A stretch of DNA of 22,897 nucleotides from a virus: the IMG/VR virus record IMGVR_UViG_3300017719_000226, positions 1-22,897 of that record, one strand, 5' to 3'. Shown piece by piece: positions 3,001-17,812 of the stretch; position 1 is the stretch's first letter, and every line of letters starts with the position of its first letter. A program made the translations under genes and the position numbers. The notes beneath the pieces were generated by a model that searched no databases, was not told the origin of the DNA, and saw nothing but the letters and a program-made list of their open reading frames with translations.

Positions 3001-3923
3001 ACACTAATAATACTAATCTTGGTTTAAGTATTTTAGAAACTGGTGCTGTTCAAGTCGCTAGGCAATTAGAATTCACACAAACAACAACTACATTTGTAAA
3101 CCCAGGTATTACTTATCATACTAATAATAATCTTTATATAAAGGGTGGAAGTGCAGGATTAATTTTATCTGATGATGGTGGACAAAACACTATTCAAATT
3201 TCTGATTCATCTGATCATATTAAATTTGAAACTGGTGATGGGACACAAAGAGCTATTATTAATTCATCAGGACTTGATATTAAGAGTGGTGGATTATTAA
3301 TAGATGGTACTGAAAAAATTAATAGTAGCGGAAGATTGGCTGGTGAAGACCAAAGAGCACAAATAAGTGGTTCTTCAACTGGGTCATTATTTGGTAATTA
3401 TCCAACAGGTGGATCTAGTGGTACAGCATTTATAAGATTTATACAACAAAACTTTACAGGCATACCAGGTTCAATTAAGTATTACGTAAGTGGTGCAAGT
3501 ACTACAATAGCAGAATCAAATACATACTTAAAATTTGTTATGGAAGCAGATGGTGATTTTCACGCTGATGGCGATCTTATAGGTTTTTCAACAACCACTG
3601 GTTCTGATAGAAAGTTAAAAGAAAATATTAGGGATTTAGAAGGTTCATTAGATAAAACACTTAAACTTAGAGGTGTACAGTTTGATTGGAAAGATGAAAC
3701 CAAAGCTAATGATCAAATCGGTTTTATTGCTCAAGAAGTAGAAGAAGTATTACCAGAAGTTATAAAAGAAGTAAAAACACTTACAAAAGAAGATGAAACT
3801 CACTTAACAGTAAATTATCCCGCAGTAGTACCTTTACTTGTTGAAGCTATAAAAGAGCAACAAACCATTATAAATAGATTAGAGGAGAGATTAAATAACC
3901 TCGAAAATAAAGGAGAAGAATAG
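1..3923 (+). CDS. Long tail fibre protein with C-terminal S74 chaperone, 5'-truncated
   Basis: The reading frame is open from base 3 with no stop, so the gene begins outside the window; the GTG at 105 is just an internal codon. About 1,306 residues are visible. Most are Gly/Ser/Thr/Asn-rich, low-complexity beta-type sequence typical of trimeric fibres, with recurring modules such as SSGLDIKSGG and EGHKPTYSELG. The last ~106 residues match the Peptidase_S74 intramolecular chaperone: Ser (codon 3603-3605) and Lys five residues later (3618-3620) in GSDRKLKENI fit the Ser-Lys pair of endosialidase-type chaperones, followed by QIGFIAQEVEEVLPE and a terminal coiled coil. In that family the domain drives trimerisation and then cleaves itself off just before the Ser. 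The protein is probably the host-recognition fibre; receptor and exact T4 counterpart (gp34-37 class) cannot be told. It sits directly before the neck genes. Confidence 0.9.
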   Translation, partial: DHELGFTTNGGQRLKLNSAGADITGTLLTNNSVKVTGTALTNSTPATDEVEFSGYGMIGNRGNLYITNSNASGFVQVGIGGSHNANPKLTVNTSGITVAGTISSGAITSSGHIQAAGALKVTETGTAQVIMIGNQDSGGVNTPAMIMGVNGAIRIGHGSSWSGEGGTFTEKIAISSSDLKITSGGLILGSTTVIDSNRNATFVASSGQTLGVDNTSSTTKKGLSLYGAAASGTNPSFGIMFTGTPGSGTHGSVTGNWATYFTMDNTTNRGWIFRNQTTGNVASISNTGNARFDGKVGIGMTPTELLDITSASGDARIRLDAPSGSDTEVKFFNAGVAQYTIGHDDATDNFVIGGANVDADLVSISKSGNTTMTGKLTLPDAGFSVSDAYHSWKRNYVVSSSSPQEILYHDGTSLDTGGNYRFTAHISGTGTDQSATAVFWNENGTWRVNVTGQSGTSSNHPEFIISSSTNKPTIHIDHTSNYTIVIYHEWLQLNEQLTGTDNAGYAFGTDAFLGSVGDKLYFTPNGTTATGVNPHDDGDEVYHEGHKPTYSELGTMAYSNLTGTPTIPTNNNQLTNGASYITGLAFSNLTNKLAGTGDYSTSGSLTAGRGSGGVSLTHNDGYGNANVTFNHKAGVPEQAGNCGRIVVNTDSTTSPQMNIELIANAGTSAINTPSAMEIEPNAVDIPEYLRHLGDTDTYIRFEANRVRIAAGGTVKLDTNNTYLTGITSSQVTTALGFTPYNATNPSGYTTYSSNQATNNNSSVSFNSVTATSNGSGTNFKVGDDAWIGDINVANTIRVSGVQNANNGYISFGNSSNTALGRAGTGQLTWGSDEIYHEGHKPTYSELGAMDASNIGSGTLSNSRLPIGLLNNHLMAGSNAILRMQETDVTNSPTWWTVADGGTWSIRLNNTGNYPISISTNANNNAVNYINLGYLTTFSAGIDVTGNATITGNLDIGTSSDASRYLYFDKAATGENGIVFKNAGNNKIKILQDSNEHLRIYTNNTNLGLSILETGAVQVARQLEFTQTTTTFVNPGITYHTNNNLYIKGGSAGLILSDDGGQNTIQISDSSDHIKFETGDGTQRAIINSSGLDIKSGGLLIDGTEKINSSGRLAGEDQRAQISGSSTGSLFGNYPTGGSSGTAFIRFIQQNFTGIPGSIKYYVSGASTTIAESNTYLKFVMEADGDFHADGDLIGFSTTTGSDRKLKENIRDLEGSLDKTLKLRGVQFDWKDETKANDQIGFIAQEVEEVLPEVIKEVKTLTKEDETHLTVNYPAVVPLLVEAIKEQQTIINRLEERLNNLENKGEE
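1617..1670 (+). repeat. 54-bp direct repeat in fibre gene, copy 1
   Basis: This segment encodes DEVYHEGHKPTYSELGTM. It matches 2496-2549 at 46 of 54 bases by eye, in the same frame and 879 bp (293 codons) apart. Most differences are at third codon positions, so the peptide is conserved, as expected of a repeated structural module in a fibre shaft. Confidence 0.85.
2496..2549 (+). repeat. 54-bp direct repeat in fibre gene, copy 2
   Basis: Second copy of the EGHKPTYSELG module (DEIYHEGHKPTYSELGAM). See 1617-1670 for the comparison. The pair could support in-frame recombination that shortens or lengthens the fibre by 293 residues (inference). Confidence 0.85.
3869..3876 (+). promoter_or_regulatory. 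Possible T4-type late promoter TATAAATA inside fibre gene end
   Basis: An exact TATAAATA lies 49 bp before the 87-aa gene and would start transcription near 3882, feeding the neck-terminase unit. It lacks the ATAGT extension shared by the five intergenic copies. It lies in coding sequence of an AT-rich genome, where a few chance matches to this 8-mer are expected. Confidence 0.4.
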
Positions 3924-6624: not shown

Positions 6625-7031
6625 TGGATAAAGATAAGATGATGAAAAACTTAGAAAAGAATGTCCCAACGAAAATACAGGATAGACCAATTAAGCTTGA
6701 TAAAGATGTGAAAGATGATTATGATTTTTCTAGAAGAACATATAGAGATTTAATACATACTGGCACTAGGTCCTTAGATGTTTTAGCTGAGCTCGCACGC
6801 GAGAGCGAGCACCCGAGAGCCTTTGAAGTTCTATCAAAAACTATTAAAGATATAGGTGATACTACTGAAAAGTTAATGAAACTTCAAAAAGATAAAGCAG
6901 ATATTACAAAAGAAGAGCGAGATGAAGCTAAAAAGATAACTAATAATAATGTATTTGTAGGTAGCACAACGGATTTACAAAGAATGTTATTGCAAAAAGA
7001 TACAGTAATTGATGTCAGCAATAAAGAATAA
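6624..7031 (+). CDS. 16: Terminase small subunit gp16
   Basis: 135 residues (T4: 164), mostly charged helix, in the conserved place before gp17. The central DLIHTGTRSLDVLAELARES with HPRAFEVLSKTIKDIGDTT is the helical core of T4-like small terminases, which form rings, recognise DNA and regulate the gp17 ATPase. Codons for LARESEHPRA are unusually GC-rich and form a palindrome (see 6791-6810). The C-terminal codons overlap the gp17 start by 20 bases. Confidence 0.85.
   Translation: MDKDKMMKNLEKNVPTKIQDRPIKLDKDVKDDYDFSRRTYRDLIHTGTRSLDVLAELARESEHPRAFEVLSKTIKDIGDTTEKLMKLQKDKADITKEERDEAKKITNNNVFVGSTTDLQRMLLQKDTVIDVSNKE
6791..6810 (+). other. GC-rich inverted repeat in gp16, candidate packaging-recognition site
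   Basis: GCTCGC (6791-6796) pairs with GCGAGC (6805-6810) around an 8-base loop. The 30 bases 6791-6820 contain 22 G or C by count, in a strongly AT-rich gene, and use codons such as CGC, CAC and CCG that are rare nearby. T4 gene 16 is reported to contain a pac-like site; the link here is inference. Confidence 0.4.
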
Positions 7032-8625
7032 CGAATTAGGGTACTTAGGAAATCCTAACGTCAAAAGAGATGGTGTCGAAACATCATTTACTAAAGACGA
7101 AATTTTAGAGTATCAAAAATGTATGGAGGATCCTTCGTACTTTGCAGAAAAATATGTAAAGATTATTTCACTAGATGAAGGGTTAATACCATTTCAGCTA
7201 TATGACTATCAGCGTAATATGTTTGAGCAGTTTAAAGAAAACAGATTTAATATCGTTTTAGCTTGTAGACAAAGTGGTAAATCAATATCATCAGTTGTGT
7301 TTTTACTATGGTATGCTATATTTTATCCAGAAAAAACTATTGCTGTATTGGCTAACAAAGGTGCAGTTGCTAGAGAGATGCTATCCAGAATAACATTAGC
7401 ATTAGAGAATTTGCCATTCTTTTTACAGCCTGGCTGTAAGTCACTTAATAAAGGTTCATTAGAGTTTAGTAATAATTCAAAGATTTTAGCATCAGCAACA
7501 ACTGGTAGTTCTATCAGGGGTCTTTCTATTAACTTATTGTTCTTAGATGAGTTTGCTTTTGTGGAGAATGATGCACAATTCTATACATCAACTTATCCAG
7601 TAGTATCAGCAGGTTCTGATACTAAAGTTATTATTACATCAACGGCAAATGGTATAGGTAATGTATATCATAAACTATGGGAAGGTGCTACTCAAAAAAC
7701 TAATGAATTTATACCATTTAGGGTTGATTGGTGGGATGTACCAGGAAGAGATGATAAATGGAAAGAAACAACAATAGCTAATACATCCGAATTACAATTT
7801 GACCAAGAGTTTGGTAATACATTCCATGGCAGAGGTAATACTCTAATAGATGCATCTACGCTATTAGCACAACAAAGTAGAAGTCCATTATATTATAAAG
7901 AAAATATTAATGTGTATGTTGAGCCAGAAATTGGTCATAACTATGTAATGACTGTTGATGTTTCAAAAGGTAGAGCTCAGGACTATAGTACATTTACAAT
8001 TATAGACGTAAGTACAACTCCTTTTCAACAAGTTGCTACTTTTAGAGATAATAATATATCACCAATGCTAATGCCTGATATAATATATAAGTATGCAAAA
8101 ACATATAATGAAGCATACGTTATTATAGAAAGTAATGACCAGGGCGGCATAGTGTGTAATGGGCTATATTACGAAATAGAATACGAAAATATGTTTGTAG
8201 AATCTACAATTAAAGCTAATGCTTTAGGTTGTACAATGACCAAAAGAGTAAAAAGAATTGGTTGTTCATCTATAAAAGAATTATTAGAACAGAAAAAGTT
8301 AATGATTTACGATTCAAATACTATAATTGAAATGAGTACATTTGTATCTAAAGCAAATTCTTGGTGTGCAGTACCACCAAATCATGATGATTTAATGATG
8401 AATTTAGTTATGTTTGGATGGTTTACAACTACTGATATATTCCAAACAATTACAAATATAGATATGAAAACTATGTTATATAATGAAAGACTAAAAGCTA
8501 TACAAGACGACATGTTACCTTTTGGACTTGTAGACAATGGAGATTCAGAAACTAATAAATATATAAAAGATGACGACGGAAATATATGGTTTGAAACAGA
8601 ATGGAAAAGTTCACAGAATATTTAA
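7012..8625 (+). CDS. 17: Terminase large subunit gp17 (packaging ATPase-nuclease)
   Basis: 537 residues from the ATG at 7012, preferred over the TTG at 7009, which directly follows a TAA in frame. The ATPase half has the adenine-contacting region PFQLYDYQRNM, Walker A CRQSGKS (residues 85-91), Walker B LLFLDE with Asp179 and Glu180, and coupling motif ITSTANG near 208-214. The nuclease half has the three acidic positions of the RNase H fold: Asp316 in VDVSKGRAQDYS, Glu373 in IIESNDQG, and HDD near 458-460. It pumps DNA into the prohead through the gp20 portal and cuts the concatemer. It overlaps gp16 by 20 bases and the next gene by 25 bases. Confidence 0.96.
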   Translation: MSAIKNNELGYLGNPNVKRDGVETSFTKDEILEYQKCMEDPSYFAEKYVKIISLDEGLIPFQLYDYQRNMFEQFKENRFNIVLACRQSGKSISSVVFLLWYAIFYPEKTIAVLANKGAVAREMLSRITLALENLPFFLQPGCKSLNKGSLEFSNNSKILASATTGSSIRGLSINLLFLDEFAFVENDAQFYTSTYPVVSAGSDTKVIITSTANGIGNVYHKLWEGATQKTNEFIPFRVDWWDVPGRDDKWKETTIANTSELQFDQEFGNTFHGRGNTLIDASTLLAQQSRSPLYYKENINVYVEPEIGHNYVMTVDVSKGRAQDYSTFTIIDVSTTPFQQVATFRDNNISPMLMPDIIYKYAKTYNEAYVIIESNDQGGIVCNGLYYEIEYENMFVESTIKANALGCTMTKRVKRIGCSSIKELLEQKKLMIYDSNTIIEMSTFVSKANSWCAVPPNHDDLMMNLVMFGWFTTTDIFQTITNIDMKTMLYNERLKAIQDDMLPFGLVDNGDSETNKYIKDDDGNIWFETEWKSSQNI

Positions 8626-10025
8626 CAGAAGATGTAACTCCTGCTAAGGATTTACATGTAGTAATTATGGGCCTCGGCGATGAGGAGGGCACCTTTGCGG
8701 AATTAATGCAGAAGGTGTGTGATAAAAATAAAATTAAGAATACTTTAATTGATGTAGATGAAGCTTATATGGTTTCGAGTGATGTTGAAATTGGCTCAGT
8801 TAAGATACGTAATTATGATGGAAAAGATAATCAAATCAATATTAATATTCAAAATACTATTATATTTGTTAGAGCAGGAGCTCTTAAATCACTCACATCT
8901 CAAGCACTTGTGTCTACGTTACAGAATATTGGTTTCTTTTTAATAAACGATTTAGAGACAATGTTACTATGTGATAATAAAATGACATCTACATTAGCAC
9001 TTGAAAGAAATAATATATCAGTGCCTAGAACTGCAATAGTAAATAACGTTAAGTCAATAGAAGAAGCACATAAAAGAATAGGCGGTAAGTTTCCTGTAAT
9101 TATAAAAACATTACGGGGTACTCAAGGTATTGGTGTATCAAAAGTTAATGATATGAGCTCACTTGTATCTGTATGTCAATCTCTATGGAAATTTAAAGCT
9201 GATTTATTAATACAAGAATACTTTAAGTTAGAATCGGATATAAGAACTCTTGTAATAAATAATAAAATAGTTGGTTCAGCTGAAAGAAGAAAAAAAGAAT
9301 CAAAAGAATTTAGAAACAATGTACATTTAGGAGCTGAAACGCTTCCATATAGTTTATCAGATGAAGAAAAGAAATTAGTAATAGACGCAGCTAGATGTAC
9401 CGGAGCTTCGTATTGTGGAGTAGATCATTGTAAAGTAGATGACAAGTTTTACATATTAGAAGTAAATGGCAGTCCAGGAATACGATCACATTTCTTAGGG
9501 TATAATTTAGAGACAGGAAAGAAAACTAAAAAGATTTCAGATTTTGAAGTATTAGATGAAATACTATTATGGTTTAGTGATGACCACAATAGAAGGCCGT
9601 TAATGAGACAAGAAGTTGGATATATTGAGAGTATAAAACTCGATGGTATGAAAGATAATCTCATTAGAGCAAAATTTGATACAGGTAATTCAGCATCAGC
9701 AACTATGCTTCATGTTGATGAAATGAAATTAGATGGAGATATCGTAACTTGGAAAAAGAACGGTATTACATTTACTAGTGATATTATAGATATATCTGAA
9801 CCACGAAGAGGTCTTAAAGCTTTTGATAAAAGACCTGTTATAGAGCATGGAATCACATTCAATAATAAAAAATATATGATGGAAATAGGGTTAACTGAAA
9901 AGGATACAGCATCTGAAATGTTAGTTAATCGTAAAGATATGACCAAATTTAGAGTTAGTGTACATCCTAATAGATTATTTATGGTAAGTGATTACGCAGG
10001 AAAGGACGATAGCACAAACCATTAG
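8601..10025 (+). CDS. RimK-type ATP-grasp ligase fused to RimB-like protease domain
   Basis: 474 residues in two parts. Residues ~15-325 align with E. coli RimK: the nucleotide loop IIKTLRGTQGIGVS (167-180; RimK has KLVEGTQGIGV), LIQEYF...SDIRTLVI, SAERRKKESKEFRNNVHLG (226-244), and metal-binding GVDHCK...ILEVNGSPG (273-293). RimK adds glutamates to the C-terminus of ribosomal protein S6. Residues ~337-465 look like the 'ATP-dependent zinc protease' family (RimB), a retropepsin-like fold: FDTGNSAS (359-366), RPVIEHGI (411-418), then MLVNRKDM and VHPNRLFMV. The ATG overlaps gp17 by 25 bases with no visible Shine-Dalgarno, so it is probably translated by coupling and made late. T4 has no such gene here. 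The substrate is unknown: host S6, another host protein, or a virion protein. Confidence 0.88.
   Translation: MEKFTEYLTEDVTPAKDLHVVIMGLGDEEGTFAELMQKVCDKNKIKNTLIDVDEAYMVSSDVEIGSVKIRNYDGKDNQININIQNTIIFVRAGALKSLTSQALVSTLQNIGFFLINDLETMLLCDNKMTSTLALERNNISVPRTAIVNNVKSIEEAHKRIGGKFPVIIKTLRGTQGIGVSKVNDMSSLVSVCQSLWKFKADLLIQEYFKLESDIRTLVINNKIVGSAERRKKESKEFRNNVHLGAETLPYSLSDEEKKLVIDAARCTGASYCGVDHCKVDDKFYILEVNGSPGIRSHFLGYNLETGKKTKKISDFEVLDEILLWFSDDHNRRPLMRQEVGYIESIKLDGMKDNLIRAKFDTGNSASATMLHVDEMKLDGDIVTWKKNGITFTSDIIDISEPRRGLKAFDKRPVIEHGITFNNKKYMMEIGLTEKDTASEMLVNRKDMTKFRVSVHPNRLFMVSDYAGKDDSTNH
8669..8700 (+). other. Second GC-rich codon-atypical patch, just after gp17
   Basis: The codons for GLGDEEGTFAE use GGC, CTC, GAG, ACC and GCG, unlike the surrounding AT-ending codons. 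The segment also contains CCTC...GAGG, able to form a small hairpin (8672-8685). With the gp16 patch it brackets gp17. Any role is unknown. Confidence 0.3.
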
Positions 10026-10045: not shown

Positions 10046-10053
10046 TATAAATA
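10046..10053 (+). promoter_or_regulatory. Late promoter for tail sheath (TATAAATA)
   Basis: Exact T4-type late -10 element in the 95-base gap before gp18, inside the shared block TATAAATAATAGT (10046-10058). By T4 spacing, transcription would start near 10059, giving a leader of about 62 bases that ends in the ribosome binding site AGAGGAT. Confidence 0.85.
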
Positions 10054-10120: not shown

Positions 10121-11818
10121 ATGGCATTTCAAGTATCACCAGGCGTTTTAGTATCAGAGATTGATGCAACAAACGTCGTACCAGCGGTGGCCACCAATAT
10201 CGGTGGATTTGCTGGACAATTTAACTGGGGTCCGGTTAACAAAGTAATTCAAGTAAGTAGTGAAAACGAACTTGCTGAAAACTTTGGTAATCCCGACAAC
10301 AGTAACTTTGGGCACTTCTTAGTAGCAGCGTCATATTTAAAATATGGAAACGCACTAAAAGTGACTAGAGGAGCCGTTTCTGGAATGAAAAATTCTAGTA
10401 ATGGCGCTGGAATAGCGATTCAGAATGAAGATTTATTTACGGGTACTACTCTTACAGGCCATAACTGGATTGCAAGATATGCTGGAGCCTTAGGCGACAG
10501 TTTATCTATAGAATTCGTTACAGCTAAAGTAACTGATAGTGCTTTTAATAATTGGTCACATTCTGGATTGTTTGCTACAAAACCTGGAACATCTGACTAC
10601 GCAAAACCAATTGACACTGATTCTAACGATGAAATTCATTTGGTTGTGAAAGACACAGGTGGTTTAATAACAGGTACTAAAGGCAGTGTATTAGAAGTTT
10701 ATGAATATCTTTCAATGGCTTCTGATGCAAAAGACGGGGCAGGTAACTCTTTGTTTTTCAAAGATGTTATTAACCAAAAATCTAAATACATTTATGTAGG
10801 TATCATTGATGATACTGATGCAACTGCAATTCAAGATGCAGGAACATTAGTGTCAGCACATACTGGAGTAACAGGTGGATTTACAAGTTTAACTACTTTA
10901 CAAACTATTGTATTTAGTAATGGATCTGACGGCTCTTCAGCAATGACTGATTCAGAATTACAAACTGCTTATAATAATTTAGCTGATGCAGATACAGTGG
11001 ATATATCTTTACTGTTCTGTCCAAGTGCTGCTGTAGCTACAGCAAATCATGTAATTGGTATAGCTGAATCTAGAAAAGATTGTATAGCTTTTGTATCACC
11101 TGAAGTATCAGACACAGAAGGTCTATCATCATCTGCTCAACTTACTGCAGTAACTGGTTTTGCTACTGGTTTAGATTCAAGCTCATACGGCTCATGTGAC
11201 TCAAGTTCAGTATATGTATACGATAAATATAACGATGTTTATAGATACATTGCTGCTTCTGGACATATGGCTGGACTATGTGCTAAATCTGAAAGATTAG
11301 CAGATGCATGGTTCTCACCTGCAGGATTTAATAGAGGTAATCTATTAGGAATAACTAAATTAGCATTTAATCCAACATCTGGACAAAGAGATTCTCTTTA
11401 TAGTGCAAGAGTAAATCCAATTATATCAGCACCTGGTCAAGGTACTGTATTATTTGGAGATAAAACATTGCTGAAGAGACCATCTGCGTTTGATAGAATA
11501 AATGTAAGACGATTATTCATTGTCATGGAAAAAGCTGTAAGTACGGCTGCAAAATTCCAGTTATTCGAATTTAACGACGATTTTACAAGAGCCCAGTTCA
11601 AAAACTTAGTTGAACCGTTCTTAAGGGACGTAAAAGGAAGAAGAGGTCTAACAGATTTTTCAGTAATCTGCGATGACACTAATAACACATCAGCTGTAAT
11701 TGATAGTAATAATTTTGTTGCTGACATATTTGTTAAGCCAACAAGAAGTATCAATTTCATACAGTTGAATTTTATAGCAACAAGATCCGGAGTAGAATTC
11801 TCCGAGATATCTAGTTAA
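10121..11818 (+). CDS. 18: Contractile tail sheath protein gp18
   Basis: 565 residues, shorter than T4 gp18 (659), the difference fitting loss of outer decoration. The N-terminus SPGVLVSEIDATNVVPAV and GGFAGQFNWGPVNKVIQVSS are hallmark contractile sheath sequences. The C-terminal domain (FDRINVRRLFIVMEKAVSTA, LVEPFLRDVKGRRGL, FIQLNFIATRSGVEFSE) is the most conserved part of sheath proteins and mediates handshake contacts between subunits. It has its own late promoter and a good ribosome binding site (AGAGGATAAAGCG). The early codons are more C/G-ending than in neighbouring genes, consistent with high expression. Confidence 0.97.
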   Translation: MAFQVSPGVLVSEIDATNVVPAVATNIGGFAGQFNWGPVNKVIQVSSENELAENFGNPDNSNFGHFLVAASYLKYGNALKVTRGAVSGMKNSSNGAGIAIQNEDLFTGTTLTGHNWIARYAGALGDSLSIEFVTAKVTDSAFNNWSHSGLFATKPGTSDYAKPIDTDSNDEIHLVVKDTGGLITGTKGSVLEVYEYLSMASDAKDGAGNSLFFKDVINQKSKYIYVGIIDDTDATAIQDAGTLVSAHTGVTGGFTSLTTLQTIVFSNGSDGSSAMTDSELQTAYNNLADADTVDISLLFCPSAAVATANHVIGIAESRKDCIAFVSPEVSDTEGLSSSAQLTAVTGFATGLDSSSYGSCDSSSVYVYDKYNDVYRYIAASGHMAGLCAKSERLADAWFSPAGFNRGNLLGITKLAFNPTSGQRDSLYSARVNPIISAPGQGTVLFGDKTLLKRPSAFDRINVRRLFIVMEKAVSTAAKFQLFEFNDDFTRAQFKNLVEPFLRDVKGRRGLTDFSVICDDTNNTSAVIDSNNFVADIFVKPTRSINFIQLNFIATRSGVEFSEISS

Positions 11819-11832
11819 GGGAGGAATATAAC

Positions 11833-12360
11833 ATGGCAATTTTAGGAGTAGACGATTTTAAATCAAAACTCGTTGGTGGCGGTGCTAGAGCCAACCTTTT
11901 CAAAGTAACGCTCAACTACCCATCATACGTGAATGGTGATGTTGAACTAACATCATTTATGTGTAAAGGATCACAATTACCTGCATCAATAATTGCACCT
12001 GTACCTGTATTATTCAGAGGCAGACAATTACAATTAGCGGGTGATAGAAGTTTTGAACCATGGGGTGTTACCGTTATTAATGACTCAGGAATGGAAGTCA
12101 GGAACGCTATGGAAAGATGGATGAACGGCATGAATTCTAATGTAAGTAATGTAGGGTTATCAAATCCTATTGATTATATGGCAGATGCAGTAGTCGAACA
12201 GTTGGATAAAGCTGGTAACGTAACTAAGAAATATGACTTTAGAGGAATATTTCCAACAAACGTTAATGCGATCGATCTTTCATACGATAACGAAAACGCT
12301 ATTGAAGAGTTTGCAGTAGAGTTCCAAATTCAATATTGGGAATCTAACACAACTTCGTAA
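11833..12360 (+). CDS. 19: Tail tube protein gp19
   Basis: 175 residues (T4: 163). Family features are ARANLFKVTLNYPS, the central LP...VPVLFRGRQLQLAGDRSFEPW (around 54-78), and the C-terminal DFRGIFPTNVNAIDLSYDNE followed by FAVEFQIQYWE, which align with T4 gp19 end to end. It polymerises into the inner tube inside the sheath. GGGAGG nine bases before the ATG is a strong ribosome binding site. It sits 14 bases after gp18 and probably shares that transcript. Confidence 0.95.
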   Translation: MAILGVDDFKSKLVGGGARANLFKVTLNYPSYVNGDVELTSFMCKGSQLPASIIAPVPVLFRGRQLQLAGDRSFEPWGVTVINDSGMEVRNAMERWMNGMNSNVSNVGLSNPIDYMADAVVEQLDKAGNVTKKYDFRGIFPTNVNAIDLSYDNENAIEEFAVEFQIQYWESNTTS

Positions 12361-14111: not shown

Positions 14112-14771
14112 ATGAAACTTATTACTGAACATATAGATCAGGAGTTAGATATCATATGTGAGGCCAAGAAAGACGGTGGAAAGGATTATTTCATCGAAGG
14201 CGTCTTTATGCAATCTAACCAAAAGAATAGAAATGGTCGTATTTACGAAAAGAAAACGCTTGAAAAAGCTGTAGAGAAATACGTTACCGAACAAGTTAAA
14301 ACGGGGAGAGCTGTTGGTGAGTTAAATCATCCTGAGGGTCCAACAGTTAACCTTGATAAAGTTTCACACAAAATCAATAATCTGCATTGGCAGGGTAATG
14401 ATGTTGTAGGAAAGGCATCAATACTTAAAACCCCTATGGGCAAAATAGTCGAAGGACTGCTCGAAGGTGGTGTTAAGCTTGGTGTATCAAGTCGTGGTAT
14501 GGGAAGTCTTGTAGCAAAGAATGGTGTCCAATATGTGGGGTCTGACTTTATGTTAGCCACAGTTGATATAGTTCAAGACCCTAGTGCTCCATCTGCATTT
14601 GTAAATGGAGTTATGGAAGGTGTTGAATGGGTATGGGATAATGGAATCATTAAGCCACAAGATATTGAATTAATTGAGACTGAAATAAAAAGTACTTCGA
14701 GTAGAAACCTTCCAGAGGTTGAAATTCGAGCATTTAAAAATTTCCTCTCTAAACTAAACTCTCAAAAATAG
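14112..14771 (+). CDS. 21: Prohead maturation protease gp21
   Basis: 219 residues (T4: 212). It has the herpesvirus-assemblin-like prohead protease motifs: GELNHPEG with the likely catalytic His73, GVSSRGMG with the nucleophile Ser at 126 or 127, and ATVDIVQDPSAPSAFV (149-164) with conserved Asp. FIEGVFMQSNQKNRNGRIYE at the N-terminus is another family signature. It removes scaffold and trims capsid proteins, typically after (L/I)-X-Glu. It lies directly between the core protein and the scaffold gene, as in T4. Confidence 0.95.
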   Translation: MKLITEHIDQELDIICEAKKDGGKDYFIEGVFMQSNQKNRNGRIYEKKTLEKAVEKYVTEQVKTGRAVGELNHPEGPTVNLDKVSHKINNLHWQGNDVVGKASILKTPMGKIVEGLLEGGVKLGVSSRGMGSLVAKNGVQYVGSDFMLATVDIVQDPSAPSAFVNGVMEGVEWVWDNGIIKPQDIELIETEIKSTSSRNLPEVEIRAFKNFLSKLNSQK

Positions 14772-14782
14772 GAGAATAAATT

Positions 14783-15922
14783 ATGTCAGAAGACGCTATT
14801 AGAAATGAACTAGCAGAAGACATAGCTACAGAAGAGGTAGTACTTTCAGAAGAGGAGAGTTCAGAAGAAGAGAACGTTGTAGTCAACGAGGAAACTGAAG
14901 AACTTGAAGAAGCTTCTAAGAAAGAAGACGCTCATGGTGAAGAGGAAGAAGAAGAGGAGAAGAAAGAATCTGTAAAAGAAGAAACTCCTTCTGTTAATAT
15001 TCCTAAAACTAAAGCTGGAGTAATCCAAGCTGCTGTAGAAATGCTTAAGAAAGCTAGAAAAGAAGACGCGCAGAAACTTTATGCTAAAATGGCAAAAGTC
15101 GACGAAACTTCTGAAGAAGAATCAATCGCATCAGTAGATGCTGCTTTAAAGAAAGCTAAAAAGGCCGTAGATCCTAAAGCTAAAGCTAAAGTAGAATCTG
15201 TTGATTTTGATGAAGATTTAGACGCATTAGTTAAAGAGGAAGCAACCCTTTCTGAAGAATTCAGAGGAAAGGCGGGGTTAATCTTTGAAGCTGTATTAAC
15301 ATCTAAGTTAACACAGGAAGTTGAAAGACTTGAAAGCGAATACGCGCAAAACCTTGAAGAAGAAGTATCTGACCTACAATCTTCACTCGTAGAAAAGGTA
15401 GATTCATACCTTAACTATGTTGTTGAAAATTGGATGAAAGAGAATGAAGTTGCAATTCATAACGGATTACGTACTGAAATTGCTGAAGACTTCATGAATT
15501 CTTTACAAGGTGTGTTCAAAGAGCACTACATCGAAGTACCTGAAGGTAAGGTTGACTTAGTTGATGAACTCAACGAATCAGTCACTGAACTAGAAGAAAC
15601 TTTAAACAAAACCACAGAAGATAATATCGAACTACACAATAAAGTTCAAGTTTTAGAAAGAGCTGAAGTTGTGAGAGAATTATCTGAAGGGCTTGCTGAA
15701 ACTGAAGCTGAAAAATTAGCATCTTTGGTTGAAGATATTGAATTTGATAACAAAGAAAACTTTGAAACAAAAGTACAAGTTGTTAAAGAATCATACTTCA
15801 AACAAGACGTTAGCGAATCAGTTGATGAAGTAGATAGTCTATTAGGTGAAGATAATGTCGAAGTCGACTTATCAGATTCTATGGCTAAATACACACAAGC
15901 TATAACAAACTTTACTAAATAA
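14783..15922 (+). CDS. 22: Prohead scaffold (core) protein gp22
   Basis: 379 residues, longer than T4 gp22 (269). Residues ~1-70 are extremely acidic with an EEEEEEEKKE run. The rest is heptad-like charged helix, including LVDELNESVTELEETLNKTT near 255-275, and the C-terminus MAKYTQAITNFTK matches the conserved scaffold tail that binds capsid protein. It fills the prohead and is later degraded by gp21. The extra length is mostly the acidic N-terminal part. AGGAG precedes the ATG. The call rests on composition, C-terminus and place between 21 and 23. Confidence 0.9.
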   Translation: MSEDAIRNELAEDIATEEVVLSEEESSEEENVVVNEETEELEEASKKEDAHGEEEEEEEKKESVKEETPSVNIPKTKAGVIQAAVEMLKKARKEDAQKLYAKMAKVDETSEEESIASVDAALKKAKKAVDPKAKAKVESVDFDEDLDALVKEEATLSEEFRGKAGLIFEAVLTSKLTQEVERLESEYAQNLEEEVSDLQSSLVEKVDSYLNYVVENWMKENEVAIHNGLRTEIAEDFMNSLQGVFKEHYIEVPEGKVDLVDELNESVTELEETLNKTTEDNIELHNKVQVLERAEVVRELSEGLAETEAEKLASLVEDIEFDNKENFETKVQVVKESYFKQDVSESVDEVDSLLGEDNVEVDLSDSMAKYTQAITNFTK

Positions 15923-17341: not shown

Positions 17342-17812
17342 ATGAGTACATTAACAACAAATAAGAACTTTTTAAGTCCAGTTGGATTTCAATTTAAAAT
17401 CAATAGTGGTAAATATGCCAATGTTGAATACTTTTGTATAGCTGCCTCATTACCATCTGTCAATTTACCACCGGTCTCTGTACCATATAGAGGTGTTAAT
17501 TTAACAGCAACAGGTGATAAACTACAGTTTGAAGATTTGACCCTTCGTATAAATGTTACTGAAAATATGGAAAACTATATTGAAACATTTAATTGGTTAG
17601 ATACTATATTACAAAGTGGTACTGCAGAAGATCATAAAGAAGATGCTACATTAATGATATTGAGCTCACATAATAACGTAAATAAACAAATAGAATTTAA
17701 AGGTATATTCCCAACAGGAATTACTGGTGTAGATTTTAATACACAGTCTACTGATATTGAATTTGTTCAAGTAGACATTACATTCTCATACACTTACTTT
17801 GAAGTAAAATAA
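17342..17812 (+). CDS. Second tail-tube-fold protein (gp19/gp54-like, gp3 position)
   Basis: 156 residues that align with gp19 of this same window: CIAASLPSVNLPPVSVPYRG followed by LTATGD (against CKGSQLP...VPVLFRG...LAGD), and the C-terminal FKGIFPTGITGVDF...VDITFSYTYFE (against FRGIFPTNVNAIDL...VEFQIQYWE). This shows a tube-type fold directly by internal comparison. It could be a baseplate tube-initiator (gp48/gp54 type), a tube cap, or the gene often labelled gp3 between gp23 and uvsY in marine T4-like phages; I cannot choose. It has its own late promoter, separate from the capsid transcript, and probably a leaderless mRNA. Confidence 0.75.
   Translation: MSTLTTNKNFLSPVGFQFKINSGKYANVEYFCIAASLPSVNLPPVSVPYRGVNLTATGDKLQFEDLTLRINVTENMENYIETFNWLDTILQSGTAEDHKEDATLMILSSHNNVNKQIEFKGIFPTGITGVDFNTQSTDIEFVQVDITFSYTYFEVK

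Follow-up and report, generated by a model that had tools for sequence, protein, structure and literature searches.

The window, that is, the whole stretch of 22,897 nucleotides of the virus record IMGVR_UViG_3300017719_000226, contains a gene designated here as rimKB, which lies between the genes for the terminase large subunit gp17 and the tail sheath protein gp18. Its product combines a RimK-type ATP-grasp ligase and a RimB/RloA-type retropepsin domain in one polypeptide (Table 1). The frame starts with ATG and is uninterrupted by stop codons. Its first 25 bases (8601-8625) are shared with the gp17 frame, as had been noted in the sequence-only reading, and 95 bases separate its end from the start of gp18. 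In T4, gp17 ends at 98504 and gp18 starts at 98536 with nothing between them, which agrees with the earlier statement that T4 has no such gene at this place. The prohead protease gp21 and the scaffold protein gp22 are encoded alongside rimKB. No RimA was found in the window.

The motif TATAAATA occurs six times in the window, always on the plus strand (3869, 10046, 12364, 13921, 17329, and 19799) and mostly just 5' of genes. These sites are probably T4-type late promoters; their count is at chance level, and it is their placement that is suggestive. The proposed late-operon position of rimKB is supported by the sites at 3869 and 10046. Downstream, a second small protein is encoded after gp23 (17342-17812); it resembles a tail tube paralogue, and a "tail tube" gene is found at the same place in the phages Mosig and C48C1.

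Table 1. Features of the rimKB locus and related genes in the window.
Feature	Positions	Strand	Basis or remark
Late-promoter-like site TATAAATA	3869..3876	+	Upstream of the operon ending with rimKB
gp17 terminase large subunit (Terminase_6N/6C)	7009..8625	+	Covers the start of rimKB
rimKB, RimK-type ATP-grasp ligase with C-terminal RimB/RloA-type retropepsin domain	8601..10025	+	474 aa; domain searches, AlphaFold, Foldseek
Predicted capsid-targeting leader MEKFTEYLTE	8601..8630	+	F4/Y7 targeting and L8/E10 prohead-protease positions; predicted cut after E10
RimK-like N-terminal alpha/beta domain	8655..8950	+	Residues ~19-116; predicted secondary structure; TIGR00768 match from residue 40
RimK ATP-grasp domain	8973..9488	+	Residues 125-296; PF08443
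RimB/RloA-type retropepsin domain	9615..9980	+	Residues 339-460; PF05618, PDB profile matches, Foldseek
DTG catalytic aspartate motif	9678..9686	+	Residues 360-362
Late-promoter-like site TATAAATA	10046..10053	+	Site of the following gp18 unit
gp18 tail sheath (Phage_sheath)	10121..11818	+	Downstream neighbour of rimKB
gp21 prohead core protease (Peptidase_S77)	14112..14771	+	PF03420, 1.1e-42; expected cutter of the leader
gp22 prohead scaffold (T4_CASP)	14783..15922	+	PF25623, 8e-63; in T4, capsid-targeting leaders join this core

The two enzymatic halves

The ATP-grasp domain matches PF08443 with an E-value of 1.8e-37 (129.2 bits; Pfam cutoff 21), and the protein passes the cutoff of the subfamily model TIGR00768 (149.7 bits; cutoff 143.4). 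Its best PDB sequence matches are RimK enzymes. The N-terminal part of the AlphaFold model was placed by Foldseek on the RimK structures of E. coli and Pseudomonas, with TM scores of 0.81-0.83 by target; RimK enzymes account for the nearest structures, including one crystallised together with RpsF, and ArgX, LysX, and RiPP ligases follow at lower rank. The residues K169, R215, R238, D275, E287, and N289 correspond to the nucleotide- and metal-binding site of RimK, where they have Mg/ATP-site roles. None of the six varies among the 81 sequences compared, a set that includes the far relatives from Mosig, GN1, and Melnitz. The score against NF007764, the equivalog model specific for S6-modifying RimK, is 94 bits and lies below the cutoff of 331; the product is therefore not filed as an S6 ligase.

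The C-terminal half is barely above the gathering score of PF05618 (27.5 bits versus 27), and the same family is recognized at E ≤ 0.01 in 28 of 30 homologues. A profile built from the C-terminal domains of 15 relatives retrieved 9g59 (RloA2, 1.3e-6), 2pma, and 9g58 from PDB. The AlphaFold model of the isolated domain gave the same three structures as leading Foldseek matches, namely 2pma (Legionella Lpg0085) and the Pseudomonas proteins 9g59 (RloA2) and 9g58 (RloA), followed by Ddi1 and HIV-1 protease. The DTG motif is invariant in all 78 sequences that have the protease domain. The label "zinc protease" attached to PF05618 is outdated, since both RimB and RloA belong to the retropepsin-like aspartic peptidases (PMC11957791, PMC12239564). 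The model of RimB proper (NF052261) scores 11.7 bits, far from its equivalog cutoff of 200, and the RloA2 model scores 25.8 bits; judged by these scores, the domain is closer to RloA than to RimB.

Polyglutamate is contacted in RloA by the basic residues K46, R114, and R137 (PMC12239564). When these residues were aligned by spacing to 9g59 and 2pma, the first two were found to be kept in the rimKB product as K358 and R411. The equivalent of R137 is K434 in the clade of the window and E, D, Q, R, or H elsewhere, being acidic or Q in a distant lineage. Because two contacts are kept but the third varies, polyglutamate cutting by the C-terminal half is likely, not certain.

Both modules proposed in the sequence-only reading are thus present, and their fusion in one intact frame recurs in about 80 independent contigs, far beyond chance. 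That reading had also named a C-terminal half unlike retropepsins, or degenerate sites in homologues, as evidence that would count against it; the half matches retropepsins and the sites are intact.

The N-terminal leader and its controls

The N-terminal ten residues of the T4 protein IPIII are sufficient for packaging into the head, with residues 4 and 7 acting in targeting and residues 8 and 10 in cutting by gp21 (PMC9026906). The IPIII leader reads MKTYQEFIAE in the T4 record. The first ten residues of the rimKB product fit the T4 rule (aromatic residues at positions 4 and 7, I or L at 8, and E at 10) with F4, Y7, L8, and E10. The cut sites of T4 Alt are ITE-6 and LTE-619 (PMC5694885), and the rimKB product reads LTE-10. 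A point against the proposed processing is that the residue after E10 is charged (D, K, or E), unlike the A behind the IPII and IPIII cut sites. Residues 1-10 have a mean pLDDT of 37 in the AlphaFold model, a low confidence that is expected for a detachable tag.

The pattern F4-[FY]7-[LI]8-x-E10 is kept in 63 of the 65 relatives at the gp17-gp18 site, among which 23 different leaders occur with changes outside the key positions. F is invariable at position 4 of these N-termini, F or Y stands at position 7, L or I at position 8, and E at position 10, and seven different residues are found at position 9. In the two exceptions, F4 and F/Y7 are retained, but ITE or LTE is shifted downstream by a few residues. 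The homologue of Pelagibacter phage Mosig, which is about 28% identical and occupies a different genome site, starts with MQVQPFKNYLEE. All 79 Mosig-like relatives obey the rule (26 variants), a count in which a slight bias is possible, one of the six search peptides lying within the leader; the Melnitz-like RimK proteins, which have no protease domain, obey it in 59 of 67 cases and were collected with no such peptide. The relatives L073-L081 and L082-L084 have a different leader, which counts against the packaging proposal. Most of L073-L081 retain L-x-E, typically within GFxMVRKARGTL[TVA]E, and this type could represent a different targeting signal.

A strict motif derived from the T4 rules recovered exactly IPII and IPIII from positions 60-110 kb of T4, and none of 231 internal Met codons there. 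In the 103-kb sister contig G001 (IMGVR_UViG_3300017739_000004), the motif recovered six unrelated proteins in addition to the RimK-RimB protein. With the RimK-RimB gene set aside, it was present at 6 of 140 start-region ATGs versus 0 of 435 internal Met (P = 1.9e-4). On the strength of these internal-Met controls and the conservation across leaders, a chance motif was rejected. Dual coding with gp17 was also rejected as an explanation of the conservation, because the leader persists in L047 and L056, where no more than 4 nt are shared with gp17, as well as with an overlap of 14 nt in another frame and at loci without an adjoining gp17. The predicted packaging of the rimKB product in the head is well supported by these sequence comparisons.

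The six leader-bearing genes of G001 are located at 11896, 13965, 15217, 18265, 19907, and 34047. Their products, a DUF6267 protein, a cytidylyltransferase-like protein with DUF5824, a HAD-type protein, and three proteins of unknown kinds, are a predicted set of injected head cargo. In another contig (L071:4693-7245), a frame of 851 aa, open at the contig end, has a leader-bearing cytidylyltransferase with the RimK-RimB protein fused behind it, and a second leader-like stretch, LKSFSQFTE, lies at the joint.

Relatives and known systems

In 56 of 80 IMG/VR relatives, the gene is flanked immediately by gp17 on its upstream side and by gp18 on its downstream side; one of these two neighbours is present in eleven further relatives. 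Other lineages occupy other sites. In Mosig, the gene lies between a regA-type translation repressor and DNA polymerase, adjoining them or nearly so, and the same holds for L073-L081 (about 50% identical), with the neighbours assigned by sequence resemblance. The RimK-only version of Melnitz lies two genes before DNA polymerase. In L082 and L084, the RimK-RimB gene is close to a cytidylyltransferase gene and a DUF6267 gene, the latter identified by resemblance. The Mosig-type relatives alone are found in at least 220 IMG/VR stretches.

No bacterial fusion of the same order was found in a shallow scan of genome contigs; the only hit was a phage contig that had been assigned to an archaeal bin. 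The contig L106 (NZDU01000031.1), recorded as a Pacearchaeota MAG, agrees with the phage contig L073 in length and in match position and very likely represents a phage fragment binned in error. A match on a Vibrio plasmid was rejected as such a fusion, as it spans a separate rimK frame of 301 aa and stop codons.

The RimK and RimB proteins of the Pseudomonas rimABK system belong to the same families as the two halves of the rimKB product, the ATP-grasp alpha-L-glutamate ligases and the DTG retropepsins; RimB trims polyglutamate and stimulates RimK (PMC7343187, PMC11957791). Unlike that system, the phage enzyme is fused, has a capsid-targeting leader and a protease half nearer to RloA, and is not accompanied by RimA. 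RimK and RimB domains are also joined in the bacterial RimBK hybrids, such as Desulfotalea psychrophila DP2392, which occur mainly in Flavobacteriales and Rhodobacterales; there the RimB domain is N-terminal, whereas it is C-terminal in the phage protein (PMC11957791). The "S6 glutaminyl transferase" of the Kyanoviridae cyanophages S-RIM8, S-RIM12, S-RIM32, and S-CAM8 (phrog_2599) is a RimK ATP-grasp ligase too, but of a separate kind, with about 292-296 aa and neither leader nor protease domain.

A counterpart in another phage group is the "ribosomal protein modification protein" g112 of Yersinia phage YerA41, which is listed as identified by LC-MS/MS in purified particles (PMC7354516). It was equated with the record YerA41_066 ("structural protein") because both have the same neighbours, ribonucleotide reductase genes. 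Its GN1 homologue, ORF105, is a full RimK and DTG fusion in the same order as rimKB. These proteins differ from the rimKB product in their location beside ribonucleotide reductase genes and in the N-terminus, which is not T4-like in YerA41. Since the YerA41 particle list includes many replication enzymes (PMC7354516), carry-over is possible for g112. By analogy, the detection supports packaging of the rimKB product without proving it.

The N-terminal leader, with its ten residues and shared key positions, and the presence of gp21 and gp22 link the rimKB product to IPI-III and Alt of T4 (PMC9026906, PMC5694885). Its packaging and injection are proposed by analogy with these internal head proteins. 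The cargo is different: T4 delivers a nuclease inhibitor (IPI) and an ADP-ribosyltransferase (Alt), and here it would be a glutamate ligase-protease. RimK, RimB, the bacterial RimBK hybrid of opposite order, and the T4 capsid-targeting leaders are already known. Their combination did not turn up in the openly accessible literature: beyond the YerA41 table entry, neither a packaged RimK in a T4-like phage nor this phage fusion was found there.

Proposed role and alternatives

From the observed leader, fold, catalytic residues, and gene context, we infer how the product may be packaged, cleaved, injected, and active. It would be made late and drawn by its first ten residues into the prohead core, freed by a gp21 cut after LTE-10, retained when the head fills, and delivered into the host along with the DNA; the presence of gp21 and gp22 counts for packaging. 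In the new host, the RimK half would use ATP to add glutamates through alpha-peptide bonds to the acidic C-terminus of a protein, and the RimB/RloA-like half would trim or end the growing chain, perhaps also stimulating the ligase in the way that RimB stimulates RimK. The enzyme probably both adds and trims glutamate chains. The packaged T4 protein Alt modifies the RNA polymerase of the host (PMC9026906), and by this analogy the purpose is most likely immediate host reprogramming. An Alt-like, head-packaged, and injected polyglutamate ligase/protease acting on a protein C-terminus is considered the probable function, with a substantial share of doubt. The identities of both halves, their fusion, the intact sites, and the late operon stand as first read from the DNA; the earlier idea that the enzyme works during virion production is not supported in that form, and the match to the T4 capsid-targeting signal points to head packaging and the next infection.

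An unpackaged late enzyme that modifies S6 or another host protein in the cytosol of the producing cell, its leader being accidental or unrelated, would suit the late-operon position and the leaderless standalone RimKs of cyanophages. It is improbable, as the leader rule matches the T4 targeting residues, is kept in three lineages at different genome sites, and is common to unrelated proteins. Slightly less probable is a head-delivered ligase with another substrate, similar to LysX, ArgX, or peptide-maturation enzymes and serving, for example, anti-defence or metabolism. The diverse acceptors of ATP-grasp relatives, the lower-ranking Foldseek matches to such ligases, the score below the S6-ligase equivalog cutoff, and the variable R137 equivalent speak for it; the RimK nature of the nearest structures, one with bound RpsF, and the partner domain from the polyglutamate-cutting RimB/RloA family speak against it.

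The least favoured explanation, which is given little weight, is an enzyme whose glutamylating or clipping action falls on the scaffold or on other head proteins while the head is assembled, and which is dispensable after injection. It gains from the predicted co-localisation with gp22, from runs of seven Glu in gp22 of the window (residues 53-59) and eight in that of the phage G002, and from the ability of RimB to cut internal polyglutamate (PMC11957791). However, the long run is missing from gp22 of G003 and G004, both of which carry the fusion, and as an unconserved feature it was rejected as a target; RloA requires at least eight Glu, and the single genome-encoded acidic stretch tested with it stayed uncut (PMC12239564). 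Moreover, the core is already processed by gp21.

For the preferred function, the packaged and injected ligase-protease, ribosomal protein S6 is tentatively the leading candidate target. It is favoured as the established acceptor of RimK, and also because the bS21 genes of these phages suggest an investment in the host ribosome. S6 and bS21 both lie on the 30S platform. The weight given to S6 is kept well below even, because the NF007764 cutoff is not reached and because the only bacterial RimBK hybrid tested left P. fluorescens RpsF, the sole RpsF tried, without glutamylation (PMC11957791). Genes for bS21 are located at 7775 in G001, 45644 in G002, 43986 in G003, 9983 in Mosig, and 35461 in Melnitz-3; the phages that encode bS21 carry a leader-tagged RimK, with a variant leader in G003. 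Phage-encoded targets were also considered. No S6 is encoded in ten related phage records. Phage bS21, present in five of seven records, was rejected since the four sequences from G001-G003 and Mosig have basic or uncharged C-termini without Glu.

Few phage proteins are known that are packaged and change the host ahead of phage gene expression. That T4-like marine phages inject a ligase-protease which rewrites the C-terminus of host S6 within minutes, before phage gene expression, is rather doubtful; if true, this enzyme would be the ribosome counterpart of T4 Alt, acting on translation. The leader rule would provide a searchable motif by which the head cargo of T4-like marine phages could be predicted and many unknown genes would become testable, and the fusion would offer a single polypeptide for studying the joint action of a glutamate ligase and a trimming protease. 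If the proposed role is true, polyglutamylation of protein tails or of the ribosome would join the host changes made by packaged proteins before phage gene expression, in phages that are widespread and abundant in the ocean.
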